This document shows positions 11,642 to 61,890 of a stretch of 64,000 nt of DNA, one piece after another. Origin of the DNA: Mesorhizobium sp. (lineage in GTDB: Bacteria; Pseudomonadota; Alphaproteobacteria; Rhizobiales; Rhizobiaceae); NCBI GenBank assembly GCA_004020545.1, contig SAQE01000001.1:124001-188000 (forward strand). Direction: 5' to 3'. Every line of letters starts with the position of its first letter. The stretch's first letter is position 1. The position numbers and the translations under genes are program-made. A model generated the notes under the pieces. It was not told the origin of the DNA. It did not search any database and saw only the letters and a program-made list of their open reading frames with translations.

Positions 11642-11747
11642 TTAGAGCGGCTCAGCGTTGCATAGAATCGCTGGCCCGCTCTAAGCATTTGTCTCGGCGC
11701 AATTCCGGACGGAAAACCGATACGCACTTTTCCTGGAATTGCTCTAA
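11642..11747. repeat. Two-module palindromic repeat (L1+R1) at the 3' end of omp10
   Basis: Module L: TTAGAGCGG (11642-11650) pairs with CCGCTCTAA (11676-11684). Module R: GCAATTCC at 11699 pairs with GGAATTGC ending at 11742, with an internal loop AAAACCG-N3-CGCACTTTT. The end CTCTAAG (11742-11748) contains the TAG stop of omp10. The same two-module layout recurs at 57111-57207 and, with different stems, at 30371-30478 and 61784-61890. Confidence 0.85.
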
Positions 11748-12115
11748 GCCCGGCGCGTCAGCACGAAATTCTGGCCGCTGGCGCTGGTGCAGTTGAGCTG
11801 GCTGGTCGAGACCATCAGGCAGTTGAAGCTGACCGGCGTCTGGCGGATCAGCGACGTGCCGTGGATCTCGACCGAGGTCGGGCCGGTCATGGTGTAGCTG
11901 CCTTCGGACAGCTTCTGGCCGGTGTCGGTGGCGACGGTCGCGAAGCTGCCTGCCGCGAAGGTCGACAGGCCGGTGCCCTTGGCGTCGATCCAGTTGCCCT
12001 CGACGCCCTTGGGCGCCGCTGCGATCGGCTCGGAAGGGCCGGTGGTGGTGCAGGCGGCAGCGGCCAGAAGGCTTGCCGCGGCGCCTGCCGAAAGCAATTT
12101 GCGCGCAATGGTCAT
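11744..12115 (-). CDS. omp10: Outer-membrane lipoprotein, Omp10 family
   Basis: 123 aa. A lipoprotein signal peptide of about 20 residues ends at a lipobox LLAAAAC, giving a lipid-modified Cys. The mature part matches Brucella Omp10 as I recall it: GVEGNWIDAKG, KLSEGSYTMTGP, a pair of cysteines (FNCLMVSTSQLNCTSASG) and a closing FVLTRR. The Brucella protein is a surface-exposed outer-membrane lipoprotein of about the same size; its function is unclear. The start at MTIARK is fixed by GAGGAGAGG 8 nt upstream. The stop codon lies in the end of a palindromic repeat. Confidence 0.88.
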   Translation of the reverse strand: MTIARKLLSAGAAASLLAAAACTTTGPSEPIAAAPKGVEGNWIDAKGTGLSTFAAGSFATVATDTGQKLSEGSYTMTGPTSVEIHGTSLIRQTPVSFNCLMVSTSQLNCTSASGQNFVLTRRA

Positions 12116-12191
12116 TTGAAAAACCTCTCCTCTCGCATCGGCCCGAAAATCGGCTTCGATTTCGGATGGCACGACGCGTCCATTCAATGTG

Positions 12192-12235
12192 CTAGAGCGG
12201 ACTTGGTGCGTCCGAATGGACGCATGTCGCTCTAG
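12192..12235. repeat. Stand-alone palindrome upstream of omp10
   Basis: The outer arms CTAGAGCG / CGCTCTAG (12192 and 12235 ends) enclose an inner hairpin GCGTCC-gaat-GGACGC. It resembles the L module of the two-module repeats without an R module. It lies 77 bp upstream of the omp10 start. Confidence 0.7.
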
Positions 12236-12301
12236 GCCGCCCGTCTTCAATCGCCCGATTTCCGGGCGATTGCAAGGTGGCGGGAGCTGTTGCCCAAGCT
12301 G

Positions 12302-13747
12302 CTATCGCACCAGGATGTTGCGGAACTGCCACGGATCGTCCCTGTCGAGATCTTCCGGGAAGAGTCCCGGGCGGTTATCGAGCGGCGTCCAGTCGGTGTA
12401 ATAGCCCCTGACCGGCCCAAGGTAAGGCAGTTGCACTTCCAGGCAGCGCCGGTAATCCATCTCGTCGGCCTCGACGATGCCGGCCATCGGATTTTCCAGT
12501 GCCCAGACCATGCCGGCGAGCACCGCAGAGGTGACCTGCAGGCCGGTGGCGTTCTGGTAAGGCGCCAGTTTGCGCGCCTCGGCCAGCGACAGCTGCGAAC
12601 CGTACCAGTAGGCATTCTTGTCGTGGCCGTAGAGCAGCACGCCGAGCTCGTCGACGCCGTCGACCAGCTCGTTCTCGTCGAGCACATGGTGGACAGGTTG
12701 CGCCTTGCCGGCGGCGCCGAACATCTCGTGCAGCGACAGCAAGGCGTCGTTGCAGGGGTGATAGGCATAATGGCAGGTCGGGCGGTAGTTCACCTTGCCC
12801 TTCTTGCCGCGCACGGTGAAGAAATCGGCGATCGAGATCGCCTCGTTATGCGTCACCAGGAAGCCGTATTGCGGGCCGGGCGTCGGACACCAGCTACGCA
12901 CGCGCGTGTTGGCGCCGGGCTGTTCCAGATAGATCGCCGCCTGCGAGCCGTTTTTGTGCTTCTTGCCGTTCTTCGGCATCCAGTTCTCATGCGTGCCCCA
13001 GCCGAGTTCGGACGGCTGCAGGCCTTCCGAGATGAAGCCCTCGACCGACCAGGTGTTCCAGAACACGTCCATCGGCTTCGGCTTCTTGGTGCGCTGCGTG
13101 TCGCGCTCGGCGATGTGGATGCCCTTGACGCCGGCCTTCTTCATCAGTTTCGCCCAGCCCTCGCGGTCGTGTTGTGCCGGCTCGGAAAACTCGAGCCCGA
13201 GATCGGTGGCGAGATGGAACAGCGCCTGCTTGACGAACCAGGAGACCATGCCGGGATTGGCGCCGCAGCAGGATATCGCCGTGGTGCCGCCGGGGTTCTT
13301 CTCCTTCTCCTGGCGCACGCTCTCGCGCAGCGCATAATTGGTGCGCGAGGCATTGTCGGCCGTCTCGTCGAAATAGAAGCCGAGCCACGGTTCGACCACG
13401 GTGTCGATGTAGAGCACGCCGAGCTTGCGGCAGAGCTTCATCAATTCGAGCGAGGAGGTGTCGACCGAAAGGTTGACGCACATGCCCTGGCCGCCGCCAT
13501 TGGTGAGAAGCGGGGTCAACAGCTTCTTGTAGTTCTTCTTGGTGACCGCGTCCTGCATGAAGGTGATCCCGCGCTCGTCGAGCAGCTTGCGGTCGGCGTC
13601 GAGCGGGTCGATGACGGCCATGCGCGACTTGTCGAACTTGAAATGGCGTTCGATCAGCGGCAGCGTTCCCCGCCCGATCGAGCCGAAGCCGATCATCACG
13701 ACAGGGCCGGTGATTTCACCGTAAACGGGCCAGTTTTCATTCGCCAT
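12302..13747 (-). CDS. hss: Homospermidine synthase
   Basis: NAD-dependent enzyme that joins two putrescines (or putrescine and spermidine) into sym-homospermidine, a main polyamine of many rhizobia; cytosolic. 481 aa, the usual length. An N-terminal Rossmann motif (VVMIGFGSIGRGTLPLI, about 17-33) is followed by long conserved stretches such as ISCCGANPGMVSWFVKQAL and VTHNEAISIADFF. The start MANENW is preceded at about 10 nt by AAGGAG. It is separated by a strong terminator from the N-demethylase-like gene upstream, so it has its own promoter. It pairs functionally with the decarboxylase gene near 39.4 kb. Confidence 0.95.
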   Translation of the reverse strand: MANENWPVYGEITGPVVMIGFGSIGRGTLPLIERHFKFDKSRMAVIDPLDADRKLLDERGITFMQDAVTKKNYKKLLTPLLTNGGGQGMCVNLSVDTSSLELMKLCRKLGVLYIDTVVEPWLGFYFDETADNASRTNYALRESVRQEKEKNPGGTTAISCCGANPGMVSWFVKQALFHLATDLGLEFSEPAQHDREGWAKLMKKAGVKGIHIAERDTQRTKKPKPMDVFWNTWSVEGFISEGLQPSELGWGTHENWMPKNGKKHKNGSQAAIYLEQPGANTRVRSWCPTPGPQYGFLVTHNEAISIADFFTVRGKKGKVNYRPTCHYAYHPCNDALLSLHEMFGAAGKAQPVHHVLDENELVDGVDELGVLLYGHDKNAYWYGSQLSLAEARKLAPYQNATGLQVTSAVLAGMVWALENPMAGIVEADEMDYRRCLEVQLPYLGPVRGYYTDWTPLDNRPGLFPEDLDRDDPWQFRNILVR

Positions 13748-13831
13748 TTTTTCGCACACTCCTTCAAACACAGGGAAAGCCCGGCATTTTCGCCGGTAGC
13801 CCTACACCACAGATCATTGTCACAAACCAGC

Positions 13832-13866
13832 AAAAAGCGCCAACCGCCGGCTAAGCCGGCTTGGCG
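13832..13866 (-). terminator. Rho-independent terminator of the N-demethylase-like gene
   Basis: On the minus strand CGCCAA-GCCGGC, a 3-nt loop, then GCCGGC-GG-TTGGCG form a long GC-rich stem followed by CTTTTT. It begins 6 nt after the stop codon of the upstream minus-strand gene and separates it from hss. Confidence 0.85.
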
Positions 13867-13871
13867 TTTGG

Positions 13872-14807
13872 TTAAGCTGCCCTGGCCATGCCGGCGAGGT
13901 ATGAAACCAGCCGGTCGCGGTCGGCGGTCAGGCCCTTGTAGTCGAGCTGTGCCTGATCGAGGGCATTGAGCTGCCCGGCGAAAGAGGCCGCGAGCGCTGG
14001 CTTGTCTGGGTGGCGGGCAAGCACGGCCAGCGGGTCGAGATGGATGCGGATTGTGAAGAGGATGTCGCGCGAGACCGGCAGCTTGCGCAGCGTTTGGCGC
14101 TCGATGCGGATGAAGGCATGCGCGTTGATGTCGCCGTCCGGAAAGCGCGTCGGGCGGTTGGTGGCACGGTCGAGGCGCTGGATGTTGGAGAGCGGATGAT
14201 AGAGTGCGTCGCCCGCCTGGATCGACCAGTTGAAGCGTTCGACCGCCTGGCCCTGCAGCCCGTCGAACATGCGGTTGATCAAATCGGCCGGCCGCGTGCC
14301 GGGGCCGAAGCCAGGCACGGGCGCATGGATCTCCTGCAGCGGCTTGCCGAATTTTTCCAGGAGCGACCAGGACGAGGGGAAGCACAGCGAGCCGGCGGCC
14401 AGCCGCCAGCCGCGCTCGTCGCGGCGCATGAGGATCAAATCCTCTTGGACGAGCAGGGACGCCTGGGCGAGTGGCGCTTCGCTCAATTCGGGAGGCAGTT
14501 CGCCGATCGTCTCGTCAAGGCCGACGACCTCGATATCCGAACCGGCACCCCGGTGGGTCTCAGGATATTTTGCCGGGAGATGGGCGGCGAGAAGGTCCAG
14601 CATTTCTTGCTGCGCGTCGCGAGTATCGCCTTCCTCGACAAAGACCTTTTCCGGGATTTCCGTGTAAAGCCGCCGCTTCTCTGCGAGATGGGGCAGAAGG
14701 AACCGATCGATCTCGATCCAGCGATCGAGCTCGAGCGGCTTGAGGCCGATGGTGAAGAGTTTCGAGGACCCGTCATAGGGCGTGTGGGTCGGCTGGCTAA
14801 CGGTCAT
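13872..14807 (-). CDS. Heme-dependent oxidative N-demethylase-like protein (DUF3445)
   Basis: 311 aa, soluble, no signal peptide. It carries the DUF3445 family blocks: an N-terminal LDRWIEIDRFLLPHLAEK, a central MRRDERGWRLAAGSLCFPS followed by WSLLEKFGKPLQEIHAPVPGF, and RIERQTLRKLP. Characterised members bind heme in a PAS-like fold and oxidatively demethylate secondary amines such as dimethylamine, releasing formaldehyde. The substrate here is not shown. No reductase partner is adjacent. It has its own terminator and lies just upstream of homospermidine synthase without being co-transcribed. Confidence 0.85.
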   Translation of the reverse strand: MTVSQPTHTPYDGSSKLFTIGLKPLELDRWIEIDRFLLPHLAEKRRLYTEIPEKVFVEEGDTRDAQQEMLDLLAAHLPAKYPETHRGAGSDIEVVGLDETIGELPPELSEAPLAQASLLVQEDLILMRRDERGWRLAAGSLCFPSSWSLLEKFGKPLQEIHAPVPGFGPGTRPADLINRMFDGLQGQAVERFNWSIQAGDALYHPLSNIQRLDRATNRPTRFPDGDINAHAFIRIERQTLRKLPVSRDILFTIRIHLDPLAVLARHPDKPALAASFAGQLNALDQAQLDYKGLTADRDRLVSYLAGMARAA

Positions 14808-14843
14808 GCTTTTCTCAAACAGAAACGACTGGCGGCTCCAGTG

Positions 14844-15506
14844 TCAGGCCAGTTGCGCCGGGATCAATCCGCGCAGCGAGTTGCCGACAAAGATCGCCTT
14901 CGCCGACTTGAGATCGTCGTAGCTGTAGATCGCTTCCACGGCGCGGCCTTCGTCCAGAAGCTCGCCGCGCAGTATTCCAGGCAGCAGGCCGCAATCGAGT
15001 CTTGGCGTGGCGAGCACGCCGTCGCCGAAGTCGGCGAAAAGATTGGTGATCGTTCCTTCGCAGAGTTCGCCGCGCTCGTTGGCGAGTAGCACTTCGTCGG
15101 CTTGCGTGATGAGATATTCGGCACGTGCGTGCGTGTAGACCTGTCGCCGGCTGGTCTTGTGGCGCAACAGCATGTCACTGGAATCGAGCCGGGTTCGCGC
15201 CAGCCGCAGCCGCCACACCTTGCCGGCCGGAAGCGGTTCGTAAGGCTGCGCGGCGGCTGTTGCCTCGCCATTGCGCTGCAGGGCAAGCCGGATGCGCATC
15301 GCGATCCGCTGCCCGCCGACCGCGCCCATCAGCACTTCGCCGATCCGTTGCGGGTCGCAGGCAAAGCCGAGCTCCGCGGCGGAAGCGTAAAGCCGCGCAA
15401 GATGGCGATCGAAGCGCAGGAAGCCCGAGCCAGGCTCCCAGCGCATGGTCTCGATCAGTTCGAAATCGGCACGGTTCCCGTCGCGAAGCGCGCTTTCAGA
15501 AGACAC
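14844..15506 (-). CDS. Class IV aminotransferase family protein, aminodeoxychorismate-lyase-like
   Basis: 220 aa. PLP fold-type IV: RFDRHLARLYASA, HKTSRRQVYTHARAE (region of the catalytic Lys), VLLANERGELCEGTITNLFAD and LDCGLLPGILRGELL are family hallmarks. Its start overlaps the end of pabB by 52 nt, so the two are translationally coupled and this is probably the 4-amino-4-deoxychorismate lyase step of p-aminobenzoate synthesis. It is shorter than E. coli PabC and resembles the C-terminal half of fused PabBC proteins. Annotation as a generic class IV aminotransferase is the safe fallback. Confidence 0.85.
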   Translation of the reverse strand: MSSESALRDGNRADFELIETMRWEPGSGFLRFDRHLARLYASAAELGFACDPQRIGEVLMGAVGGQRIAMRIRLALQRNGEATAAAQPYEPLPAGKVWRLRLARTRLDSSDMLLRHKTSRRQVYTHARAEYLITQADEVLLANERGELCEGTITNLFADFGDGVLATPRLDCGLLPGILRGELLDEGRAVEAIYSYDDLKSAKAIFVGNSLRGLIPAQLA

Positions 15507-16600
15507 TCCCGGTACTCCTCATCGGCCGTCGAATCGAAGACGACGCCGCCGCCGACATTGTAGACGGCCTCGCCATCGGCAAAGAGCGAGATGGTGCGGA
15601 TCGCCACCGAAAAGCGCATCGTGCCGCCGGGTGCGACCCAGCCGATGGCGCCGCAATAGACGTCGCGCGGCACGCTTTCCAGATCGTGCAAGATCTCCAT
15701 GGCGCGGATCTTCGGCGCACCGGTGATCGAGCCGCAAGGGAAAAGCGCGGCAAAGACCCGGCGAATGCCGACATCCGGCAAGAGTTTCGCCCGCACCCGG
15801 CTCACCATCTGATGCACGGTCGGATAGGTCTCGATGCGGAACAATTCCGGCACCTCCAGCGTGCCGACCTCGCTGATCAGCGAAATGTCGTTGCGCAGCA
15901 GGTCGACGATCATCCGGTTCTCGGCCTGGTTCTTCTCGTCGTTGCGCAGGAACGCCTTCAGCCGCGCGTCCTCGGCTTTGGTCGCGCCGCGCGGCGCGGT
16001 GCCCTTCATGGGGTGCGTCTCGATCATGCCTTCGGCGTCGATCTCGAAGAAGAGTTCCGGCGAACGCGACAGCACGACCGGATCACCAAGCGAAATCAGC
16101 GCGCCGTATTTCACCGGCTGGCGTTCGGTCAGCGCGTCGAAGGCGGCAAGCGCATCGCCGGACCATTGCGCATGGACCGGAAAGGTCAGATTGCCCTGGT
16201 AGCAGTCGCCCTTGCGGATGTGCTCATGAAGGCGCGCGAAGCGGACGGCATAGTCCCTGGCGGACCAGCTTGCCCTGGCGTCGAAGATCGGGCCGTTGCT
16301 GGCGGGGCCCGAACTCCTCGGCACAGCCTGTTCGAGCGGTGCGTCGAAGACGCCGAGGCAGATCAGCGGCGCGCGGCGGCCCTCAGGCAGCAATGGCACC
16401 AGCTTCGGCTCGAGCAGGTAGCCGGCCTCGTAGGAGAAATAGCCGGCCAGCCATTTGCCGGCGTCGGAGGCCGCCTGCGCTGCATCGAGCGCTGGCGCGA
16501 ACTCGTCCGCGTTGCGCGCGATGATGACGTCGTGCGGGCTGTCGAAGACGAGCTGGCGAGCGGTCTCGTCATTGCGGAAGATGGCTGAAGGCAGGAGCAT
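15455..16600 (-). CDS. pabB: Aminodeoxychorismate synthase component I
   Basis: Adds ammonia from the glutaminase partner to chorismate, giving 4-amino-4-deoxychorismate for folate. 381 aa, the short form lacking a long N-terminal domain. Chorismate-binding signatures: GDCYQGNLTFPVHA, SRSPELFFEID, THPMKGTAPRG, ENRMIVDLLRNDIS, ALFPCGSITGAPKIRAMEI. No PabA is encoded nearby; the glutaminase may be shared with TrpG or lie elsewhere. First gene of a two-gene operon with the class IV aminotransferase. Confidence 0.93.
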   Translation of the reverse strand: MLLPSAIFRNDETARQLVFDSPHDVIIARNADEFAPALDAAQAASDAGKWLAGYFSYEAGYLLEPKLVPLLPEGRRAPLICLGVFDAPLEQAVPRSSGPASNGPIFDARASWSARDYAVRFARLHEHIRKGDCYQGNLTFPVHAQWSGDALAAFDALTERQPVKYGALISLGDPVVLSRSPELFFEIDAEGMIETHPMKGTAPRGATKAEDARLKAFLRNDEKNQAENRMIVDLLRNDISLISEVGTLEVPELFRIETYPTVHQMVSRVRAKLLPDVGIRRVFAALFPCGSITGAPKIRAMEILHDLESVPRDVYCGAIGWVAPGGTMRFSVAIRTISLFADGEAVYNVGGGVVFDSTADEEYRECLLKARFATGTVPISN

Positions 16601-16777
16601 GAGCCTCGGATGCGGTCAATGGGCACCGTCGATCGCTCTATATGGGGGCTCAGCGAGGCGCAATCGAGGGAACGGCGTCAGGAGGCGCAAAGTCACGCAC
16701 GGTGCAAACATCCGTGCCCAAACCAAGGCGGCGTCCGCAATGGACGCCGCCTTGCACTGGTCATGGCGCATGCGGGA

Positions 16778-19690: not shown

Positions 19691-19846
19691 CAACAATTAC
19701 CTTTTTGAATCAGGGCCAGAATCAAAGGGAAAGGAGAAGCCGGTCAAATCCTAAGGAATTCGTTCACCGGGTTTTTTGAAACCTTATTTAGAACCCTGTG
19801 CCAAGATGATCCATGGGGATTTCTCGGGCGGGCAATTCAGACAGTC

Positions 19847-25722: not shown

Positions 25723-25746
25723 GCGCAGGTGGAATTTTGTTTTGAC

Positions 25747-25795
25747 GCAATTCCGGACGGAAAGCCGGTGTCCACTTTTCCTGGAATTGCGTTAG
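25747..25795. repeat. Single R-module palindrome (R2) at the 3' end of eda
   Basis: GCAATTCC at 25747 pairs with GGAATTGC ending at 25790, with internal AAAGCCG-N3-TCCACTTTT. The next bases, GTTAG, contain the complement of the eda stop codon TAA. No L module is present. It lies in the convergent gap with the SDR gene. Confidence 0.8.
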
Positions 25796-26427
25796 GCCAG
25801 CTTGCTCGCCTCGCGCGCGAGCGCTTCGATCTCATCCCATTTGCCGGCCTTGATCAGATCGTCGGGCGCGACCCACGAACCGCCGACGCAGATGACGTTG
25901 GGCAGGCTGAGATAGTCGGCGGCATTCTTTGCCGTTATGCCGCCGGTCGGGCAGAACTTCACGTCGGCGAGCGGCGAGGCGAAGGCTTTCAGCGAAGCGA
26001 TGCCGCCCGACTGCTCGGCCGGAAAGAATTTCAGGAAGCGCAAGCCGGCTTCGCGCGCGGCCATGATCTCGCCCGGCGTGATGGCGCCGGGCAGCAGCGG
26101 CACGGGGCTGCCCTTCGCCGTATCGAGGAGCTGGCTTGTGATGCCGGGACTGACGATGAATTTCGAGCCGGCGGCGGCTGCCTCGTCGAATTGCCTGGCA
26201 TCGAGAATGGTGCCGGCGCCAACGATCGCGTCCTCGACCTCGGCCGCGACGCGGCGGATCGCTTCCAGGGCGTCGGCGGTGCGCAGCGTGATCTCGATCG
26301 CCCTCAAGCCGCCGCGCGACAGGGCGCGGGCGAGCGGCACGGCGTCGGCGACATTGGCGATCTTGAGCACCGGGATGACAGGCTGACCATTGAGAAGCGA
26401 CAGAAGCTTTTCGGTCTTGCTGGTCAT
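25792..26427 (-). CDS. eda: KDPG/KHG aldolase
   Basis: Cleaves 2-keto-3-deoxy-6-phosphogluconate to pyruvate and glyceraldehyde-3-phosphate in the Entner-Doudoroff pathway, the main glycolytic route in rhizobia; also acts on 4-hydroxy-2-oxoglutarate. 211 aa. Class I aldolase signatures: the catalytic Glu in [22 protein letters not shown] and the Schiff-base Lys in FLKFFPAEQ, plus CPTGGI near the C-terminus. No edd is adjacent. The stop codon is supplied by the end of a palindromic repeat. Confidence 0.94.
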
Positions 26428-30226: not shown

Positions 30227-30580
30227 GGGCTTGCTCCATCATTGACGCTTAGCATTCTATACCGTCGAGCAGCCCGGCATCTTGCGCCAGATCAAACGCG
30301 ACAATGCTTGCGACGGTCATGCTGAAGGACTCCAGCCGGACCATCGCAAAGACGCATCTGACGGATTCGCTTAAAGCGCGTCGCGATCTTTCGGATTCGC
30401 TTTGTGCGCTTTAGGTTTTTGATTTTACGCATGTCTTTGTCCCGAAGCCGGCTCCCACTTTCGGGAGACATGCTTTAGGGCGGGCAGCTCACGAGAGCGG
30501 CCCGAGCGAGCTGATCTCGACCAACCCGGTGTCGGCTCGGCGAGCCCGCTCGCCATCTCCTACGAGTGGAGGGTGGAAGC
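30227..30580. other. Gene-free interval carrying a two-module repeat
   Basis: 354 bp between the SHOCT gene start and the aminotransferase 3' end. It holds the composite palindrome at 30371-30478 and otherwise nothing I can support as coding. The SHOCT promoter should be in 30227-30370. Confidence 0.5.
30371..30478. repeat. Two-module palindromic repeat (L6+R6)
   Basis: Module L: TTAAAGCGC at 30371 pairs with GCGCTTTA ending at 30412. An AT-rich joint GGTTTTTGATTTTAC follows, then module R: GCATGTCT at 30429 pairs with AGACATGC ending at 30473, with internal AAGCCG-N3-CCCACTTT. Its layout matches 61784-61890 almost base for base in the joint. Confidence 0.85.
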
Positions 30581-34801: not shown

Positions 34802-36028
34802 TCAGGCGCCGCCCGTCAGGCTGGCCGACAAAAGCAGCAGCCCGACCAGGAAGATGAAGGCCGCGCCGCCGATCTCGACGATCGAATGGATGCGGTTGCC
34901 GAGATATCCGTCGCCGGCGAAATAGACCGCCCAGTTCTTGGCGGTCACCGCGAGCGTCGCGAGCGCCGAGACGGTGATCGCGGTGCCGATCGACATCGCA
35001 AGCACCGAGAGCAGTCCGCCAAGCCAAAGCCCGTTGAGAAGCGCGAAGCTCAGCACGATCAGCGCGCCGGAGCAGGGACGGATGCCGACTGCGGCAACGG
35101 CCGACCAGGCGGTCTTCCAGTCGAAGCGATCGCCTGAAAGCAGCGCCGGATCCGGCGCATGCGAATGGCCGCAGGTCTCGCAGACTTCGCCCGCGCCATG
35201 GTCGTGATGATGCTGCTCTGCATGATCATGAGCGGCGTGGTCGTGATGATGGTGATCGTGCGCGCCGTGATCATGTGCGTCGTGGCTGTGTGCGTGCGAA
35301 TGCGCCACATGATCATGGTCGTGATGCGCGTGCGACGCATGGACATGCGCCGCGTGGGCATGCGCGTGAGCGTGTGAGTGTCCCGCGTGCGAGTGTCCGG
35401 CATGGGAATGCCCGCCATGCGAATGGCCGGCATGGGCGGCCGACAGGCTGTAGGCGGGACTTCTGCCGAACAGCCGAAGAATGGATGGGCCCGCCTTGCG
35501 CCAGAGCAGCCAGGCGCCGAACAGGGTGACCAGCACAAAGCTGGAGATTTCGAGGAACCAGGCCGCGTCGGTCATCGACACCGCCGTGCCGCGCAGCACG
35601 AAATAGGCAAGCACCATGACGACGACCGCCGTCAGGCCCTGCAGCAGTGCCGAGACGAAGGACAGCAGGATGCCGCGCTTCAGCGCCACTTCGTTGGCGA
35701 CCATGTAGGACGAGATCACCGCCTTGCCATGCCCGGGACCGGCGGCGTGAAAGATGCCATAGGCGAAGGAGAGGCCGACCAGCAGCCAGAGCTTGCTACC
35801 GTCCTGGCGCATCACCTTCATCGCGGCTGCCAGCGAATGGTAGAATTCCTGCTGCCGGACATTGATCCACATCAGGATATGGGCGAACGGACCGGAGGTG
35901 CTTGGCGCCATGCCGTCATTGGTGCCGATGCCGAGCGAGCTCTGGGCATGGGCGATGCCGGGCAGATGCGTCATCACCAGGGTGGCGGCCAAAAGGCCGA
36001 GCGCCAAGCGCAGCGATGGTTTCATCAC
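34802..36028 (-). CDS. NicO/RcnA-type nickel-cobalt transporter with very His-rich loop
   Basis: 408 aa. A signal-like first helix (about 7-28) precedes NicO-family membrane segments with HAAGPGHGKAVISSY and GIRPCSGALIVLSFALLNG, both typical of Ni/Co exporters. Between them is a loop of about 90 residues (roughly 198-290; nucleotides about 35150-35440) dominated by His with Ala/Asp/Ser/Gly, plus a CETCGHSH Cys pair. The loop should bind divalent metal on one membrane face. Immediately downstream of the DUF1007 gene (3-nt gap), so the two are co-expressed, a pairing seen in many proteobacteria. Confidence 0.88.
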   Translation of the reverse strand: MMKPSLRLALGLLAATLVMTHLPGIAHAQSSLGIGTNDGMAPSTSGPFAHILMWINVRQQEFYHSLAAAMKVMRQDGSKLWLLVGLSFAYGIFHAAGPGHGKAVISSYMVANEVALKRGILLSFVSALLQGLTAVVVMVLAYFVLRGTAVSMTDAAWFLEISSFVLVTLFGAWLLWRKAGPSILRLFGRSPAYSLSAAHAGHSHGGHSHAGHSHAGHSHAHAHAHAAHVHASHAHHDHDHVAHSHAHSHDAHDHGAHDHHHHDHAAHDHAEQHHHDHGAGEVCETCGHSHAPDPALLSGDRFDWKTAWSAVAAVGIRPCSGALIVLSFALLNGLWLGGLLSVLAMSIGTAITVSALATLAVTAKNWAVYFAGDGYLGNRIHSIVEIGGAAFIFLVGLLLLSASLTGGA

Positions 36029-38982: not shown

Positions 38983-38989
38983 GCGCTTG

Positions 38990-39420
38990 CCCAAAGTCGC
39001 ACGTGCCTGTGGGTGTCCGCCGATCCTCGAATGGTGAGGGCAACCGGTAAGGTAACTGGAGCCAACCCCTCCAGTCGGTCTAGTGGCCAACCGCCAGACC
39101 GAGGACACCTTGAAGCAACGACGGTGCGGGCCTTTCTGGTGTCTGCCGGTCGTCCAAAGACCGGGGTTACTGAAGAGGCACACCTTCATTGCCGGCAGTG
39201 CGGACGGGGTCCTCCCATCCAAGCCAAGGCAGACAAAGCGAACCGAGGCCGGGCAAGGCCAGGTTCACCGCCGCGAGACGGCGATTCGTGGTTCCGGGGT
39301 CTCCACCGGCTGGTTCCACGGATTTTCCGTCCCGCCTTTGTCCACAGCGAGTTCGCGAGGCTGAGCGCCCGCGCCCCGCAGCCTTTGTGCGCGCCGAAAG
39401 GCGCCGATGGAGAGACCTCG
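38990..39420 (+). ncRNA. speF-type structured leader RNA upstream of the ornithine/lysine decarboxylase gene
   Basis: A roughly 430-nt untranslated leader. GGTGTCC (39012-39018) pairs with GGACACC (39103-39109), closing a multibranch region with hairpins CCTC/GAGG, ACTGGAG (39055-39061)/CTCCAGT (39069-39075) and CGGTCT (39076-39081)/AGACCG (39096-39101). Downstream, GGTGT (39138-39142) pairs with ACACC (39180-39184), around or beside CCGGTC (39146-39151)/GACCGG (39159-39164). GACACC at 39104 can instead pair with GGTGTC at 39138, giving two exclusive states. GGTCTC near 39299 can cover GAGACC at the ribosome site (39409-39417). Position and gene fit the alphaproteobacterial speF motif, described as a conserved leader of ornithine decarboxylase genes. 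The ligand or mechanism is unproven. Confidence 0.8.
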
Positions 39421-40554
39421 ATGGCCACCCAGCGCATCCTTGACTTCCTTGCCACCCGACGTCCGAACGGCCCCTGCCTCGTCGTCGACCTCGATGTCGT
39501 GCGCGACAATTTCCGCGCCTTCGAGAAGGCGCTGCCCGATTCCAAGATCTACTATGCGGTGAAAGCAAACCCGGCGCCGGAGATCCTGCGCCTTCTTGCT
39601 GCGATGGGCTCGTCCTTCGACACCGCGTCGGTTGCCGAGGTTGAGATGGCGATGGACGCCGGCGCGCCGGCGGACCGCATTTCCTTCGGCAACACCATCA
39701 AGAAGGAGCGCGACATCCAGCGCGCCTACCAGCTCGGCATCCGCCTCTATGCGGTGGATTGCGTCGAGGAGGTCGAGAAGATCGCCCGCGCCGCTCCCGG
39801 CTCGCGCGTGTTCTGCCGCGTGCTGACCGACGGCGAGGGCGCCGAATGGCCGCTGTCGCGCAAGTTCGGCTGCGTGCCGGCGATGGCCGTCGACGTGCTG
39901 CGCCATGCCAGGGGTCTCGGCCTGGACGCCTATGGCGTGTCGTTCCATGTCGGCTCGCAGCAGACTGATCTCACGGCCTGGGATCGCGCGCTGGGCGATG
40001 CCAAGAAGGTGTTCGCGACGCTTGCCGAGGAAGGCATCGTCTTGAAGATGGTCAACATGGGCGGCGGTTTCCCGACCCGTTACCTGAAGGATGTGCCGGC
40101 GGCGCAGGCTTACGGCCAGGCGATCTTCTCGGCGCTGCGCAAGCATTTCGGCAACGCGCTGCCCGAGACGATCGTCGAGCCGGGCCGCGGCATGGTCGGC
40201 AATGCCGGCGTCATCAAGTCGGAAGTCGTGCTGATCTCGAAGAAGGCCGACAACGACAATGTGCGCTGGGTGTTCCTCGACATCGGCAAGTTCGGCGGCC
40301 TCGCCGAGACCATGGACGAGGCGATCCGCTATCCGATCGTCACTCGCCATGACGGCTCGGAAACCGCCCCTTGCGTGCTCGCCGGCCCGACCTGCGATTC
40401 GGCGGACGTGATGTACGAGAAGACGCCCTATCCACTGCCCCTGTCGCTGACCATCGGCGACGAGGTGCTGATCGAAGGCACCGGCGCCTACACGACGACC
40501 TATTCCTCGGTCGCGTTCAACGGCTTCGAGCCGCTCCGATCCTACGTGATCTGA
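39421..40554 (+). CDS. Ornithine/lysine decarboxylase, alanine-racemase fold
   Basis: Makes putrescine from ornithine (or cadaverine from lysine), the precursor for homospermidine; cytosolic. 377 aa, fold-type III. PLP Lys48 in YYAVKANP, FDTASVAEVEMAMDAGA, HVGSQQ (His stacking on PLP), MGGGFPTRY, EPGRGMVGNAG and the catalytic Cys325 in GPTCDSADVMYE, with a C-terminal AYTTTYSSVAFNGF. The GGAGAG ribosome site lies 6-8 nt before ATG. Controlled by the long leader upstream. Family members in rhizobia accept ornithine and lysine, so specificity is not assigned. Confidence 0.94.
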   Translation: MATQRILDFLATRRPNGPCLVVDLDVVRDNFRAFEKALPDSKIYYAVKANPAPEILRLLAAMGSSFDTASVAEVEMAMDAGAPADRISFGNTIKKERDIQRAYQLGIRLYAVDCVEEVEKIARAAPGSRVFCRVLTDGEGAEWPLSRKFGCVPAMAVDVLRHARGLGLDAYGVSFHVGSQQTDLTAWDRALGDAKKVFATLAEEGIVLKMVNMGGGFPTRYLKDVPAAQAYGQAIFSALRKHFGNALPETIVEPGRGMVGNAGVIKSEVVLISKKADNDNVRWVFLDIGKFGGLAETMDEAIRYPIVTRHDGSETAPCVLAGPTCDSADVMYEKTPYPLPLSLTIGDEVLIEGTGAYTTTYSSVAFNGFEPLRSYVI

Positions 40555-51089: not shown

Positions 51090-51113
51090 AAGTGTTAAGT
51101 GGAGGAAGACGGG

Positions 51114-51779: not shown

Positions 51780-51817
51780 TCCGATTAAACGCGGGCATCA
51801 ACGGGAGAGTTGCAGTT

Positions 51818-52894: not shown

Positions 52895-52916
52895 CCGGCT
52901 GACGGAGGTAAAGCCC

Positions 52917-55695: not shown

Positions 55696-55728
55696 ACCTC
55701 TTCTCACCTGCTCCCTGGAAATCACCCC

Positions 55729-57114
55729 ATGCAAGTCAAGCGCAACGGCGACATCTCGTTCTGGTATGCGGATCTGGGCGCGGTTCCCGCGCCGCGCCCG
55801 TCTTTGCCCGCCGACATCGAAGCCGACGTCGCAATCGTCGGCGCCGGCTATACGGGGCTCTGGACCGCCTATTATCTGAAGAAGGCAAAGCCCTCGCTTC
55901 GCATCGTGCTTCTCGAACGCGAGTTCGCCGGCTTCGGCGCTTCCGGGCGCAATGGCGGCTGGCTGTCGGGCGGCTTCGGCTGGTCGCGCGAAAAATATCT
56001 CAAGACCTCGACAAGGCAAGGCGTGACCGCCATGCAGGAGGCGATGGCAGGCTGCGTCGACGAAGTGATCCGGGTGGCGGCCGAAGAAGGCATCGACGCC
56101 GACATCCGCCGCGCCGACAATCTGACGGTCGCCACCAATCCGGCGCAGCTCGAGCGCGTGCGCGAGGAATGCGAAACGATCCGCTCCTGGGATGCCGATC
56201 CCGAGCGCATCGAACTGCTCGATGCTGCAGCGACGCGCGCGCGCATCAACATCCGGAATGTCATGGGTGGTTTCGTCATCCATGGCCAGGCGCGGGTGCA
56301 GCCGGCCAAGCTGGTGCGTGGGCTGGCGGAAGCGGTCGAGCGGCTCGGCGTGCCGATCTACGAAAAGACAACGGTCACGGCGATTGCCAAGGGTAGCGTG
56401 ACCACCGACCGAGGCACGGTGCGGGCCGAAACCATCATCCGCGCGACGGAGGGCTTCACGGCCGGCATTCCGGGGGAAGAACGGACATGGCTGGCGCTCA
56501 ACAGCGCGCAGATCGTCACCGAGCCGCTGTCGCCGGAACTCTGGCGCGAGATCGGCTGGGAAGGCCATGAGCTGCTCGGCAATGCGGCGCATGCCTATTG
56601 CTATGCCCAGCGCACGCGCGAAGGGCGCATCACCATGGGCGGGCGCGGCGTGCCTTATCGCTACGGCTCGCGCACCGACGTCAACGGCCAGACGCAGCAG
56701 GCGACGATCGACCAGTTGCACACGATCCTGACGACCCTTTTGCCGCAGACGGCCGGATGCCGCATCGACCACGCCTGGTGCGGCGTGCTCGGCGTGCCGC
56801 GCGACTGGTGCACGACGGTCGGCCTCGATCCCAGGACCCGGATCGGCTGGGCCGGCGGCTATGTCGGGCTCGGCGTCTCGAGCTCCAACCTTTCGGGTCG
56901 CACGCTTGCCGATCTGATCCTCGGCAATGACACGGATCTGACGCGCCTGCCCTGGGTCAACCGCAAGGTGCGACACTGGGAGCCGGAGCCCTTCCGATGG
57001 CTCGGCGTCCACTCGATGTATCAGCTCTACCGCATCGCCGACCAACGCGAGGCGGCGGGGCTCAATCACACCTCGAAGCTTGCCGCTCTGGCCGACAGCA
57101 TCACGGGCCATTAG
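55729..57114 (+). CDS. FAD-dependent amine oxidoreductase, PuuB/DadA-like
   Basis: 461 aa, cytosolic. N-terminal FAD motif VAIVGAGYTGLWTAYYL, then GASGRNGGWLSGGFGW (typical of gamma-glutamylputrescine oxidase and related DAO enzymes), a VQPAKLVRGLAEAVERLG region and C-terminal GYVGLGVSSSNLSGRTLADL. It oxidises an amine, with H2O2 or electron transfer as by-product. It sits 33 nt after the transporter ATPase, so imported amine is the likely substrate. A PuuA-type ligase is absent, so the compound need not be gamma-glutamylated. The stop codon lies in the end of a repeat. Confidence 0.9.
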   Translation: MQVKRNGDISFWYADLGAVPAPRPSLPADIEADVAIVGAGYTGLWTAYYLKKAKPSLRIVLLEREFAGFGASGRNGGWLSGGFGWSREKYLKTSTRQGVTAMQEAMAGCVDEVIRVAAEEGIDADIRRADNLTVATNPAQLERVREECETIRSWDADPERIELLDAAATRARINIRNVMGGFVIHGQARVQPAKLVRGLAEAVERLGVPIYEKTTVTAIAKGSVTTDRGTVRAETIIRATEGFTAGIPGEERTWLALNSAQIVTEPLSPELWREIGWEGHELLGNAAHAYCYAQRTREGRITMGGRGVPYRYGSRTDVNGQTQQATIDQLHTILTTLLPQTAGCRIDHAWCGVLGVPRDWCTTVGLDPRTRIGWAGGYVGLGVSSSNLSGRTLADLILGNDTDLTRLPWVNRKVRHWEPEPFRWLGVHSMYQLYRIADQREAAGLNHTSKLAALADSITGH

Positions 57115-57207
57115 AGCGGGTCGGCGTCCGCCGAACCGTTCTAACTATTTGTTTTGCCGCAATTCCGGACGGAAAACCGCTGCACAGTTTTCTTGGAATT
57201 GCTCTAG
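57111..57207. repeat. Two-module palindromic repeat (L3+R3) between the oxidase and cupin genes
   Basis: Module L: TTAGAGCGG at 57111 pairs with CCGTTCTAA ending at 57144, and its first bases contain the TAG stop of the oxidase gene. Module R: GCAATTCC at 57159 pairs with GGAATTGC ending at 57202, loop AAAACCG-N3-CACAGTTTT. The element ends 2 nt before the ATG of the cupin gene. Confidence 0.85.
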
Positions 57208-57209
57208 TC

Positions 57210-57581
57210 ATGGAGACCACCAGCTTGATCGACCTTTCGACTTTCCACGACCTCGCCAAGGCCGATATCGGAGCGTTCTCGCCCAAGCCGACATCCGTCG
57301 AAGGCAATCAGGTCGAGGCCGTGCGCTCCTTCTTCCAGTCGCCGGACGGGACCATCGACATCGGCATCTGGGAATGCACGCCTGGCCGCTTCACCGCCGA
57401 CCGTTCGCGTTCGTCGGAAATCTGCCACATCATTTCCGGCCGCGTGGAAGTGAGCCGCGCCGACGGCGAGATGCGCGAGCTCGGACCGGGAGATCTGCTC
57501 GTCCTGCCGCGAGGATGGAAAGGCGAATGGCTGATCCATGAGACGACACGCAAGCTCTACATGATCCAGAGTGGCGGCTGA
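57210..57581 (+). CDS. Cupin-domain protein (DUF861 type)
   Basis: 123 aa. Cupin motifs: WECTPGRFTADRSRSSEICH, IISGRVEVSRADG and ELGPGDLLVLPRGWKGEW. Similar to ethanolamine- or (S)-ureidoglycine-type small cupins often found at the end of amine-catabolism operons. It follows the PuuB-like gene with only a palindromic repeat between, and that repeat has replaced any normal ribosome site (the nearest GGA is about 13 nt away). Expression may therefore be low or coupled. Function unknown. Confidence 0.82.
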   Translation: METTSLIDLSTFHDLAKADIGAFSPKPTSVEGNQVEAVRSFFQSPDGTIDIGIWECTPGRFTADRSRSSEICHIISGRVEVSRADGEMRELGPGDLLVLPRGWKGEWLIHETTRKLYMIQSGG

Positions 57582-57601
57582 ACGTCGTCCCTTGTTTTGA
57601 C

Positions 57602-57644
57602 GCATGTCGTTCCCCAAACCGCTACACACTTTTGGGCGACATGC
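57602..57644. repeat. Single R-module palindrome (R7) at the 3' end of the MFS gene
   Basis: GCATGTCG at 57602 pairs with CGACATGC ending at 57644, with internal AAACCG-N3-CACACTTTT. The MFS stop codon (57646-57648) abuts it with one base between. It lies in the convergent gap after the cupin gene. Confidence 0.8.
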
Positions 57645-57645
57645 A

Positions 57646-59289
57646 TCAGTGGTCGATTGGCCCCCTCGGTGAGACGAGCGCCGTGCCGGCAGTGGTCGGG
57701 CGTTCGATCATGCGGCGCACGCGCGGCGGGTTCTCGCCGCTGTGGAGCGCGCGGATGCGCTCGCCGACCACTGCGTCGGCATGGGTGGCGCGCCGGTTGT
57801 GGCGGATGTACTCGACCCAGGTCGGCGTGTGGTAGTGCTCGATCCAGATGCCCGGATTTTCGAGGTCGCGCGCGAGCGTCCAGTTGCGGGCGCCGTCGCG
57901 GCGGCGGATGCGGCCGCGCTCGGCCATGGTGGCGAGGAACTCCGGCACATCCTCCTCGCGGATGACGTATTCGATCATGATGGCGATCGGGCCGCTGCGC
58001 GGCTTCAAGTCGAGCGACAGCATCGGCTCCTTGAACCGGTTGAGGGGGTCGAGGTTGAGAACCGTCTGCTTCGGCAACGGCAGGAAGAAGCCGATGGCGC
58101 CGCCGGCAAGCATGGCGACGGCGGCAGCCATCAATGCGGTCTCGGCGCCATGGGCGTCGGCGACGACGCCCCAGATCCAGCTCCCCAGCGCAATGCCGCC
58201 GAAGGTCGCCGTCTGGTAGATCGACAGCACGCGGCCGACCACCCAGCGCGGCGTCGACATCTGCACCGTGACGTTGAAATGCGAGAGCGCGATCACCCAG
58301 CAGGCGCCGCCGATGAGCAGGCCGGCCGATGTCTGCCAGGCATTGTGGCTGACCGCTGCGTTGAGGGCGCAGAGCGCAAAGCCGGCAAAGGCGGCGCGCA
58401 CCATCGTTTCTGAGGATAGCAACTGTCTCAGCCGCACGCTGATCAGTGCGCCGCCGACCGCGCCGATGCCGAAGGCGCCGAGCATGATGCCGTAGGTCAG
58501 CGCATCGCCCTTGACGACGTCGCGCGCCACGAGCGGCAGCAGCGCCAGCACCGCGCCGGCGCTGAAGCCGAAGGCCGAGCCTCTCGCCAGCACCTTGCCG
58601 ATGTTTGGCGACATGGCGACGTAGCGCAGGCCGGCGCCCATCGCGGCGCCGAGCGCCTCGCGCGGCAGCGTCGGCGCCGGCATTTCCGGCTTCCAGCGGA
58701 ACAGCACGACAATCAGCCCGATATAGCTGATGGCGTTGGCGGCGAAGGCGGCGGCCGCACCCGCGGCGGCAACGATGACGCCGCCGATCGCCGGGCCGAC
58801 GCTGCGTGTGATGTTGAAGCCCATCGAGTTGAGCGCGATCGCCGCCGGCACCTTGGCGCGCGGCACCATGTCGCCGACGGAGGCCTGCCATGACGGGCTG
58901 TTCAGCGCCGTGCCGCTGTCGATCAGGAAGGTGAAGGCAAGCAGTGTCCACGGCGTCATCCAGCCGAACCACGTGAACACCGTCAGCAGCGCCGAAACCA
59001 CCAGCATGAATGTTTGCGCCACCAGCATGACCTTGCGGCGGTTGAAGCTGTCGGCGATGGCGCCGGCAATGAGCGCGAACAGCATGATCGGCAGCGTGGT
59101 CGAGGCCTGGACCAGCGCCACCTGGTAGGAAGAAGTGGCGATCGTGGTCATCATCCAGGCGGCGCCGACGCCCTGGATCAGACCACCGAAATTCGACACC
59201 AGGCTGGCCGACCAGACGGCGCGGAAGATGCCGTGCCGGAACGGCGCCAGCGCCGAGACACGTTCGCTTTCCGGCTCGTCGTCGATCAT
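57646..59289 (-). CDS. MFS transporter (EntS-like, MFS_3) with C-terminal ABM-like domain
   Basis: 547 aa from MIDDEPES. Twelve hydrophobic segments (about 25-415), opening with FRHGIFRAVWSASLVSNFGG and containing DSGTALNSPSWQASVGDMVP and GAFGIGAVGGALISVRLRQL, as in the enterobactin-exporter-like branch. After helix 12 a soluble domain of about 110 residues (IAIMIEYVIREEDVPEFLAT, WIEHYHTPTWVEYIRHNRR) resembles the dimeric alpha-beta barrel of ABM proteins, an architecture known in this MFS subgroup. The exported compound is unknown. Confidence 0.87.
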   Translation of the reverse strand: MIDDEPESERVSALAPFRHGIFRAVWSASLVSNFGGLIQGVGAAWMMTTIATSSYQVALVQASTTLPIMLFALIAGAIADSFNRRKVMLVAQTFMLVVSALLTVFTWFGWMTPWTLLAFTFLIDSGTALNSPSWQASVGDMVPRAKVPAAIALNSMGFNITRSVGPAIGGVIVAAAGAAAAFAANAISYIGLIVVLFRWKPEMPAPTLPREALGAAMGAGLRYVAMSPNIGKVLARGSAFGFSAGAVLALLPLVARDVVKGDALTYGIMLGAFGIGAVGGALISVRLRQLLSSETMVRAAFAGFALCALNAAVSHNAWQTSAGLLIGGACWVIALSHFNVTVQMSTPRWVVGRVLSIYQTATFGGIALGSWIWGVVADAHGAETALMAAAVAMLAGGAIGFFLPLPKQTVLNLDPLNRFKEPMLSLDLKPRSGPIAIMIEYVIREEDVPEFLATMAERGRIRRRDGARNWTLARDLENPGIWIEHYHTPTWVEYIRHNRRATHADAVVGERIRALHSGENPPRVRRMIERPTTAGTALVSPRGPIDH

Positions 59290-59450
59290 GGTTGCTGTTC
59301 CGCCTTCATCTGCTGCCTCGCGCTTGCCGCGCGCCAGGGTCGCGCCGGCGACTCGCCAAAGGATCGCGGCCCAACAACAGGAAGGCAAAGGCGAAAATGC
59401 GTCGGCGAAGCTTTAAGCCAAGCATCTTGCCGGTCTGGACCAACCCTTGC

Positions 59451-61316
59451 CTATTTCGCGCCCCTGGTTTCGGAATGCAGCGCCTCGGTGAGGCTGCCTG
59501 CGGTCTCGCCGCCTATATACAGTCTCAGCAGCATCTCCATGCCGACGAGGCGCAGTCTCGACGATTCCTCGCTTGCGGCCATGTCGATGAGGTCATCCAG
59601 CTCCGATGCCGACCATTTCATGGCGTCGCGCAGGAAGCCGCCGCGCAGCAAGCCCTGCGTGCCGGCCGAAAAGGCATGGGACATCTCGAAGCCATTCTTT
59701 GCCGCATAGATGTTTTCACTCGGCAGATAACGTTCGGCGACCTTCTTCAGCAGCCATTTGCTAGTCCTGTTGCGGTATTTGTGCCGTCTCGGCAGATGTA
59801 TCGCGAAATCGATCAGCCGGCTCTCCAGAAAGGGAACTCGCAGCTCGACGGAGGCGGCCATGCTGAGGCGGTCATGCCGGTGCAGCAGGTCCTGCAGGTG
59901 CGAATAGAGATCGTAGAGGCAGCTTGCCAGGAAGGCGCGGTCGCTGTCCGGGCTGACGCCGTCGAGCCGATCGAACAGCTTGGTTTGCAGGAAGTTCAGT
60001 TCCGGCGAGAGCGCTCGCAGCACGATGTTGCGGTCCCAGGGCGAGCCGCGGCCAATCGAATTGCGGAACGGGGAGCGACGAAGCCGCGCGAATTTCCGGT
60101 CCCGGGCGGCCTTCGAGCGAAACAGGCGTCGCAGCCATGACTGACGCCAAAGCCTGATGGTCGACGCCTGCCATTTATAACCGCCGAACAGCTCGTCCGA
60201 ACCTTCGCCGGTGAGCAGCACCTTGACGCCGTCGGCGCGGCATTGATCCGCGAGCGCCAGCAAGCCCGCCACGCTGGCGTGCCAACCGTCGCTTTCGAGA
60301 TGCCAGACCGCGCGCGGCCACAGCTTGAGGAAGCGATCGCGGTCGACAGGCACCCGGCGGACGCTTACGCCGACGTGGCGGCCGGTCCGCTCGGCGCTTT
60401 CGGCCTCGCTGCGGCCGAGCTGCGGGTCGACGACATAGCCGTGCATCTCCGGCCTGTAGCGCTTGGCAAGCGCGGTGATCAGACCGGAATCGACACCGCC
60501 GCTGCAGGCGGTGGCCAGGCCGGCATCGGCGATGCAATGCAGCTCGACGCTGTCTTCGAGCAGCGCCTCAAGGGTTGCCATATGCCCGTCATCGGACGTC
60601 CTGTCGTCGACGATGCGCGATGTCTCCAGGACGTCGAGCACATGCCAGAAACGCTGCTTCTCGATGCCGCCATCGCTGATCTTCCAGAGCCCGGCGGGAG
60701 GCAGGCGCTCGATGCCTTCGAAGACGCTGTAGCTGGAATCGCGGCTCTGCCAGGCAAGCCGCAAGGTGAGCTCGCGCGCGTCGACCCTGCGCGTAAAGTC
60801 GTGGCAGGCGAGGATTGCCTTGTCCTCGGAGGCGAACAGCAGCCGGTCTGCGGTGTCGGCCACCGATATCGGCTTGATGCCAAGCCTGTCGCGGGCAAGC
60901 CACAACGCACCGTCGCGCTGATCGAAATAGGCGAAGGCAAACATGCCGTCGAACAGCGGCACAGCTTTTTCGACGCCCCAGTGGTGCAGGGCCTGGAGCA
61001 CCACCTCGGTGTCGGAGACCGTGCGGAACTCGAGGCCTTCGGCTTCCAGCGTCTTGCGCAGCGAACGGTAGTTGTAGACTTCGCCGTTGTAGCAAAGGAC
61101 GCCGTCGCCGTCGGTTGTCAGCATGGGTTCTCGCGCGGCGGGCGAGGGGTCGATGATGGTGAGCCGGCGGTGGCCGAGCGCCAGCCTGGCGCCGTTCCAA
61201 CTGTCGTGATCGTCGGGGCCGCGATGCGCCAGCGCCTGCATCATGCGGGCGATGTCTGAAAGATCGCCGGCGCCGATCGGATCGCGCTTTCGCCAGACGC
61301 CGGCTATCCCACACAT
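59451..61316 (-). CDS. asnB: Asparagine synthase (glutamine-hydrolysing), AsnB family
   Basis: 621 aa from MCGIAGVW, so Cys2 is the N-terminal glutaminase nucleophile. The Ntn amidotransferase domain (1-200) contains LAHRGPDDHDSW, GHRRLTIIDPS and CYNGEVYNYRSLR. The synthetase domain (about 225-600) has the PP-loop ATACSGGVDSGLITALA and LLTGEGSDELFGGYKW. Either housekeeping asparagine synthesis or, as with many stand-alone rhizobial AsnB paralogues, amidation of a surface polysaccharide. The sequence does not decide. It lies next to fliQ, upstream of the MFS gene on the same strand. Confidence 0.9.
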   Translation of the reverse strand: MCGIAGVWRKRDPIGAGDLSDIARMMQALAHRGPDDHDSWNGARLALGHRRLTIIDPSPAAREPMLTTDGDGVLCYNGEVYNYRSLRKTLEAEGLEFRTVSDTEVVLQALHHWGVEKAVPLFDGMFAFAYFDQRDGALWLARDRLGIKPISVADTADRLLFASEDKAILACHDFTRRVDARELTLRLAWQSRDSSYSVFEGIERLPPAGLWKISDGGIEKQRFWHVLDVLETSRIVDDRTSDDGHMATLEALLEDSVELHCIADAGLATACSGGVDSGLITALAKRYRPEMHGYVVDPQLGRSEAESAERTGRHVGVSVRRVPVDRDRFLKLWPRAVWHLESDGWHASVAGLLALADQCRADGVKVLLTGEGSDELFGGYKWQASTIRLWRQSWLRRLFRSKAARDRKFARLRRSPFRNSIGRGSPWDRNIVLRALSPELNFLQTKLFDRLDGVSPDSDRAFLASCLYDLYSHLQDLLHRHDRLSMAASVELRVPFLESRLIDFAIHLPRRHKYRNRTSKWLLKKVAERYLPSENIYAAKNGFEMSHAFSAGTQGLLRGGFLRDAMKWSASELDDLIDMAASEESSRLRLVGMEMLLRLYIGGETAGSLTEALHSETRGAK

Positions 61317-61404
61317 GGCCCGCCGGCCGCTTCTGCCTGATCCATGGCTTCCCGAAGTCTGTCCGAATTCCAAAGACGCTGCCGAAGCCGGCGCGGTTCA
61401 CAAT

Positions 61405-61453
61405 CTAGAGCAATTCCAGGAAAAGTGCGTAGCGGTTTTCCGTCCGAGACCGG
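61405..61453. repeat. Degenerate R-module palindrome (R4) between asnB and fliQ
   Basis: Reads on the minus strand as GGACGG-AAAACCG-N3-CGCACTTTT-CCTGGAATTGCTC. The right arm and loop are intact, while the left GCAATTCC arm is degenerate. It lies 40 nt beyond the fliQ stop. Confidence 0.65.
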
Positions 61454-61492
61454 CTGCAAGTGGACTGGCCCAGCGCCCGCGACAGGCGTACG

Positions 61493-61759
61493 TCAGAAGC
61501 CGTGCTCGATGCGTTCGAAGATGACGTTGGTGAAAGCCGAGATCTGGCTGCCGATGAACGGACCGGTCAGCGCCACCACCAGCATGATGGCGACGATCTT
61601 GGGCACGAAGGTGAGGGTGATTTCCTGGATCTGGGTCAGCGCCTGGATGAGCGCGATGCCAATGCCGACCGCCATCGCCACAAGCACCACCGGGGCGGAT
61701 GCGGTCAGCACCGTCCACACCGCGTACTGCACGATATCGAGCGCATCGGCCTCATTCAT
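61493..61759 (-). CDS. fliQ: Flagellar type III export protein FliQ
   Basis: 88 aa, two membrane helices: VVLVAMAVGIGIALIQALTQ IQE-type segment and LTFVPKIVAIMLVVALTGPF. Small subunit of the export gate. Last gene of flagellar block 1. A 107-bp palindromic repeat separates it from flgD, and flhA, its normal successor, is 13 kb away. Confidence 0.94.
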   Translation of the reverse strand: MNEADALDIVQYAVWTVLTASAPVVLVAMAVGIGIALIQALTQIQEITLTFVPKIVAIMLVVALTGPFIGSQISAFTNVIFERIEHGF

Positions 61760-61783
61760 AGGCAGACCCCCTGGCGAAACCAG

Positions 61784-61890
61784 CTAAAGCAGGTCGCGTG
61801 AAAAAGGATTCACGCGACCTGCTTTAGGTTTTTTGATTTTAAGCATGTCTTCGTCCCGAAACCGGACCCACTTTCGGGAGACCTGCTTAG
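61784..61890. repeat. Two-module palindromic repeat (L5+R5) between flgD and fliQ
   Basis: Module L is nearly perfect: 19-bp arms at 61784-61802 and 61809-61827 (CTAAAGCAGG... / ...CCTGCTTTAG). An AT-rich joint GTTTTTTGATTTTAA follows. Module R: GCATGTCT at 61843 pairs with AGACCTGC ending at 61886, internal AAACCG-N3-CCCACTTT. The flgD stop codon TAA (61887-61889) lies in the final TTAG. Confidence 0.88.

Follow-up and report, generated by a model that had tools for sequence, protein, structure and literature searches.

Short bacterial repeats that supply stop codons (BOX, GTAG REPs) and small elements with a TA target (RUP, RU-1/ERIC) were already known. RUP of Streptococcus pneumoniae is a short non-coding element with a TA target and ends like those of IS630-Spn1 (PMC2229807, PMC3049150). 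In the case of BOX, 36 coding sequences run into the repeat at their very 3' end and take their stop codon from it, with no strong evidence that they are truncated relative to orthologues (PMC3049150). The termini of GTAG REPs are described as often giving flanking open reading frames (ORFs) their TAG stop, and these repeats are found chiefly in the gaps of convergent or tandem gene pairs (PMC3733652). ERIC/RU-1 of enterobacteria has TA ends, TA duplication and stem-loops, with some copies at gene 3' ends (PMC2759123). Here we analyzed a stretch of 64,000 nucleotides (the window) from Mesorhizobium sp. (GCA_004020545.1, contig SAQE01000001.1, positions 124,001 to 188,000) and found two families of short repeats, type A and type B, whose ends coincide with the stop codons of neighbouring genes far above naive chance.

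Type A and type B differ from BOX in their host, and BOX has ISSpn2 as its proposed partner, with no stop-target mechanism given in the portion of the BOX text consulted (PMC3049150). They also differ from RU-1, which at ECA3499 takes the place of the stop and lengthens the protein (PMC2759123), whereas a gene entering type A or B stops at the first triplet. GTAG REPs are 20-40 bp long and linked to tyrosine transposases, unlike type A and B, which have TA at both ends and a duplicated TA. Type A and B resemble RUP and other IS630-related miniature inverted-repeat transposable elements (MITEs) in the TA target, the short non-coding unit and the ends resembling an IS630-family element; they depart from RUP in their GC-rich rhizobial host, two hairpins, Y-TA-R target (Y, pyrimidine; R, purine), frequent landing on stops and a type A 3' end that is weakly like that of an insertion sequence (IS). 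Rhizobia are also said to carry Rhizobium-specific intergenic mosaic elements (RIMEs; reportedly Osteras, 1995), which like type A and B are rhizobial intergenic repeats. Type A and B may possibly be RIMEs. S. meliloti has annotated RIMEs (PMC2573895), and passages of five articles (PMC2573895, PMC1273637, PMC3687685, PMC2245857, PMC2267715) contained no RIME sequence usable for comparison.

The window (G000:C100:124001-188000) belongs to a 7.0-Mb draft genome, from which we sampled stretches totalling 1.23 Mb, window included (~18% of the genome), on 11 contigs chosen as already known to contain element copies. The sample was searched with oriented profiles of both types (E <=1e-3, overlaps removed), and its genes were called with a coding-score script, those of the window being also matched to Pfam. 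The profile search returned 78 elements, 45 of type A and 33 of type B. Type A (~104 bp, TAGAGC...GCTCTA) and type B (~106 bp, TAAAGC...GCTTTA) both have TA at each end and two hairpins, and with profile lengths of 104 and 106 they are short and have no transposase of their own. At the gathering score Rfam gave three matches in the window, none of them on a type A or B element. At one place in the genome (G000:C66:20177-20336, L110) two type A elements abut or overlap, as if one had inserted into the TA end of the other.

We counted an end as complete when it lay no more than 3 positions from that of the profile, and ends not starting with TA were adjusted by a single base wherever this brought them to a TA. 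The 78 elements had 115 complete ends by this definition, and at 28 of them the T of a stop codon was the terminal T of the element (25 coincided without the one-base adjustment and three were off by one). Not a single end had a stop 1-4 nt outside the element; 37 had one 5-265 nt outside, five had one inside the element, and 45 had no inward gene within 400 nt. Among the genes that enter an element (coding score at least 20), 28/31 stop at the terminal triplet, where frame alone predicts one third (P=6e-11). One of the three non-conforming genes stops 12 nt further on in the same frame, and the terminal triplet there is CAA. Small samples of two other species lent weak support: of the ends with an inward gene, 2 of 9 coincided with its stop in G003 (11 elements, 220 kb) and 3 of 4 in G021 (10 elements, 400 kb).

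The original prediction had named five elements of the window that meet a gene exactly at its stop, and all five were confirmed in the sequence. A complete type A element of 104 bp (11643..11746, forward strand) has a 3' TA that is the TA of the stop of an omp10-like gene on the reverse strand (longest ORF 11744..12250, with the gene caller placing the start inside it at 12115); the stop TAG (11744-11746) thus overlaps the element end, and the protein had no Pfam match. A type A copy with its 5' part absent (25736..25794, forward) ends in TAACGC as against the consensus TAGAGC, and this end contains the stop TAA (25792-25794) of eda, encoding KDPG aldolase (25792..26427, reverse; Pfam). The gene for a FAD-dependent oxidoreductase (puuB-like; 55729..57114, forward; Pfam) has its stop TAG (57112-57114) at the 5' end of a type A element with two complete ends (57112..57206, forward), whose joined flanks give the target TTAG. 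A type B copy of which only the 3' part is present (57590..57648, forward) adjoins the gene for an MFS transporter (MFS_3; 57646..59289, reverse; Pfam). The coincidence held here too, but the TGA (57646-57648), which had been placed one base from the element, is itself the terminal triplet of the remnant. The stop TAA (61887-61889) of flgD (61887..62294, reverse; Pfam, FlgD) lies in the end of a type B element with both ends present (61785..61889, forward), the 3' end of which was moved one base to reach TA. Two further elements of the window are intergenic, a complete type B (30372..30477, forward) entered only by one weak short ORF (score 14) and a type A remnant (61406..61447, reverse), whose site in relatives is empty or filled in either orientation.

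Both types were also searched for in annotated Rhizobium and Sinorhizobium plasmids, which provide independent gene calls, and type A relatives were present in S. meliloti plasmids. In the type B plasmid list 32 of 40 records were annotated, and 15 of the 32 had a gene at the match; in the spread list of 60 for type A, 29 were annotated with at least 97% query coverage, and 5 of the 29 had a gene there. The gene table is incomplete, and records with no gene under the match may include missed genes. We examined 16 places in 15 records (9 of the 15 for type B, all 5 for type A, and the type A matches H32 and H120), leaving aside six type B places with the same product names as those examined, the low-coverage gene-bearing type A matches H135 and H137, and other gene-bearing rows. 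The overlap of gene and element was exactly 3 bp, the stop codon, in 16/16 places, and in NZ_CP104041.1 (L258) a single type B element terminates a convergent gene at either end, with a stop triplet in common in both cases. For annotation this means that a three-base overlap between gene and repeat may be correct.

For the 40 elements complete at both ends, the flanks were joined to recover the target; TA was intact at both ends in 24, and in the other 16 TA was assumed and the outer bases alone were read. The joined targets were Y-TA-R in 37/40, including CTAG in 18/40, and 22 of the 24 with intact TA were Y-TA-R. The site of the intergenic remnant at 61406 has the empty form CAATCTAG or CAATCTAA in relatives. 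Empty sites there read CAATC-TA-G/A (L122, L123, L131), a site filled by a complete type A element reads CAATC-TA-GAGC...GCTC-TA-GCC (L126), and L132 has an insertion in the opposite orientation. The TA target is thus duplicated at this one empty/filled intergenic site. The flgD site is consistent with TA duplication, but its far end is one base short. The omp10 site is without the element in G011, where the surrounding sequence is 97-98% identical; this closest empty site has TAA. With the element in place, the sequence reads TAG towards the gene and TA-A at the opposite end, the outcome to be expected had a TAA stop been the target.

We consider it very probable that type A and B are non-autonomous miniature transposons that insert into the TA of Y-TA-R and duplicate it, the stop codon being rebuilt as they do so. 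The TA used for insertion would lie in a Y-TA-R sequence, with CTAG the most frequent form, and would be duplicated; any TAA or TAG stop that follows a pyrimidine is such a sequence. After insertion the gene's original TA and the first base of the element (G or A) would again read TAG or TAA in the same codon; the protein would usually be unchanged, with the element contributing the third base of the stop alone. YTAR inside genes would be both rare, the genome being GC-rich, and harmful to hit, which would make stops a large share of the tolerated sites. In the open-access literature searched we found neither a description of insertion into the stop's own TA, restored by a purine-first end, nor a mechanism by which rhizobial repeats would use stop codons as targets. 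Such insertion would offer a simple mechanism for a pattern that is described without one in the sections on BOX and GTAG REPs seen here, and it suggests how 78 copies per 1.23 Mb may persist in a gene-dense genome with proteins undamaged.

To see where genes end in relatives without the element, 12 element-terminated genes were compared with same-genus homologues, the end codons being read by tblastn and in-frame extension. Taking all 12 genes, the end codon is shared by 99/163 relatives scored empty. For eight of them (omp10, puuB-like, MFS, flgD, C111:186837, C111:189835, C105:53202 and C100:123664) the figure is 93/100, a count in which a G002 site appears twice (puuB-like), some remnants that escaped the profile are included and a contig end interrupts one case. 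The end codon was identical in 24/24 same-genus loci for the omp10-like gene, in 19/19 loci with the element present or absent for the puuB-like gene (the G002 site again counted twice), in 17/20 relatives scored empty for MFS and in 10/13 scored empty for flgD, where TAR also stood in 10/13. In the stretch of G011 examined, no homologue of C144:33198 was present. As the empty relatives of these eight genes mostly share the end codon, the stop will usually have preceded the element, and the proposal that the element brings its own stop is not supported in that form. Two findings had been named beforehand as jointly telling against the original prediction, namely ends no closer to stops than expected and empty orthologues ending at the same codon; the ends are near stops far above naive chance, and for eight of the 12 genes the empty orthologues mostly do end at the same codon.

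These comparisons also bear on truncation, in which the element would land in the 3' part of a coding region and its terminal TAG or TAA would end the frame early. Eda and one convergent pair, on both sides, are indeed shorter than their empty relatives, but truncation should leave only one third of the entering genes at the terminal triplet, far fewer than the 28/31 counted, and the 93/100 empty relatives already end at the element-associated codon. Moreover, almost every joined target has a purine following TA, so that a target in frame was already a stop. We regard truncation as unlikely; as a general rule it is ruled out by the frame test and the empty relatives, and eda and the one convergent pair remain as exceptions.

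A candidate partner for the elements was sought in the IS630 family, and DDE_3 (PF13358) was found in 100 of the 119 genomes of the genus searched. We examined 32 loci, of which 13 were bounded by terminal repeats adjoining TA, and a looser scan added L265, L273 and L280. The bounded loci had a YTAR target in 12/13 cases and CTAG in 9/13, and three of them (L272, L279 and L292) end a neighbouring gene at their terminal TAG. The bounded loci other than L278, L291 and L292 (10 of 13) supplied 19 IS ends, and each type A 5' end (n=21) was scored by its best match among these; the mean was 18.95/26 and the best 25/26, as compared to a highest mean of 9.67 in 200 shuffles. The end TAGAGCGGTTCAGCTTTTGACAGAATCG of L266, a locus of two overlapping ORFs, is identical to the type A copy C111:186734 in 25 of the 26 bases after TA. 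By this comparison of ends an IS630-type partner is well supported for the 5' part of type A only. We infer that type A is mobilised in trans by a transposase of the IS630 family and that type B uses a related enzyme, which would tie orphan rhizobial repeats to an IS630-type partner. A quite different origin, as REP-type palindromes moved by a RAYT with the GTAG end giving the stop, could draw on the stop-supplying habit of GTAG REPs noted above; yet our elements have TA at both ends, a duplicated target TA and units of ~105 bp, they have IS630-type elements with a matching end in the genus, and they lack the GTAG REP pattern of a palindrome tagged at one end with no target duplication. It is hardly credible for type A and B.

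How far the landing on stops exceeds chance was assessed with several models, and these disagree. With elements masked except at stops, the sample contains 442 YTAR sites inside genes, 639 intergenic and 177 at stops; stops make up 22% of the non-coding plus stop YTAR sites, and 61% in convergent gaps. Of the 40 elements complete at both ends, 16 touch a stop. When all non-coding and stop TA were treated as equal, 5.0 were expected (P=1e-5), but when both YTAR and gene arrangement were matched the expectation rose to 12.9 (n=39 of 40) and the excess was not significant (P=0.16). The arrangement itself is skewed, as, of the 77 of 78 elements that could be placed, 24 lie in convergent, 48 in tandem and 5 in divergent gaps, with 14.4, 80.2 and 38.4 kb of non-coding DNA, respectively. 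This density in convergent gaps, with fewer elements in tandem and few in divergent ones, and the two hairpins of each complete copy are what would be seen if a 3'-end function, as terminators or mRNA-stabilising hairpins, were selected after insertion and set the position. Such selection would leave unexplained the base-exact coincidence with stops and the lack of any stop at 1-4 nt, and absence from promoters suffices for the arrangement bias; we hold it to be improbable. Target preference combined with loss of insertions in genes and promoters is the simplest reading. The original prediction had set a preference for 3' ends against a filter by survival, and both seem to contribute, the former seen in the YTAR targets (37/40) and the latter in how few of the 78 elements lie inside genes; YTAR preference in a GC-rich genome leaves stop codons among the few usable sites, and insertions inside genes were probably lost by selection.

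Several results weigh against insertion into pre-existing stops as a complete account. Eda ends at the same codon in 0/19 empty relatives, being shorter by one codon than 17 of them, by two than another and by three than the last. The genes of the convergent pair at C144:142725-142828 are shorter on both sides (same codon in 0/16 and 0/15, counts in which several alignments overrun the true end and G011 appears twice), and C105:48927 is variable (same codon in 6/13 empty relatives). These cases suggest that some insertions shortened the protein or came after a previous change. At some sites, among them omp10 (20/23), the codon in most empty relatives is TGA, which is not a YTAR target. Three elements (C121:13500, C144:70069 and C33:93655) lie inside genes as called by the script. 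On the side of the partner, the 3' end of type A matched IS630 ends at 10.95/26 and the two type B ends at 14.0 and 10.0, which is weak to moderate against highest shuffled means of 9.36-9.86, and the three DDE_3 (PF13358) loci found in the window's own genome included none bounded by matching ends. Finally, two weaker chance models gave an excess at stops: YTAR without arrangement (8.7 expected, 16 observed, n=40, P=0.007) and tetramer-matched sites (5.5 expected, 14 observed among the 24 of the 40 elements with intact TA, P=1e-4).

This last excess would be expected if the elements actively targeted stops or transcript 3' ends, for instance through termination or ribosome release, beyond their sequence preference. 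At omp10, MFS and C111:186837 the stop that holds type A in one species is also occupied by type B in a different one; the omp10 stop in L154 (G003) carries type B, while the window copy is type A. However, reuse of one site is equally expected of a strong YTAR target, and with arrangement matched the excess loses significance, as given above. Active targeting seems to us an outside chance, and there may be a modest extra preference for stops. A further step, that the element ends are adapted to stops, with the purine-first end rebuilding TAR and the lineage gaining hundreds of neutral landing sites, is conceivable but doubtful. If it were true, purine-first ends and the YTAR target would be selected features of IS630-type elements and MITEs in GC-rich bacteria, and the mobilising IS would use the same stop-codon refuge.

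A sixth case in the original prediction, at the stop at 3583, was dropped. The inverted repeat there (CGTCATCC...GGATGACG, 3388..3577, no strand assigned) belongs to an unrelated family outside the type A and B phenomenon, of which BLAST found six copies in the 1.23 Mb, with scattered stop-to-end distances of 8, 21, 25, 29, 29, 66, 72 and 90. Imperfect direct repeats (CATGGTCGTGATGATG...) occur at 35197-35362 of the window, within a called gene on the reverse strand (34802-36025); as a guess, the tract may be His/Asp-rich and metal-binding-like. Upstream of a called gene at 39421, Rfam matched an ar45 small RNA (153 bits) followed directly by a speF leader (93 bits) at 38989-39291.

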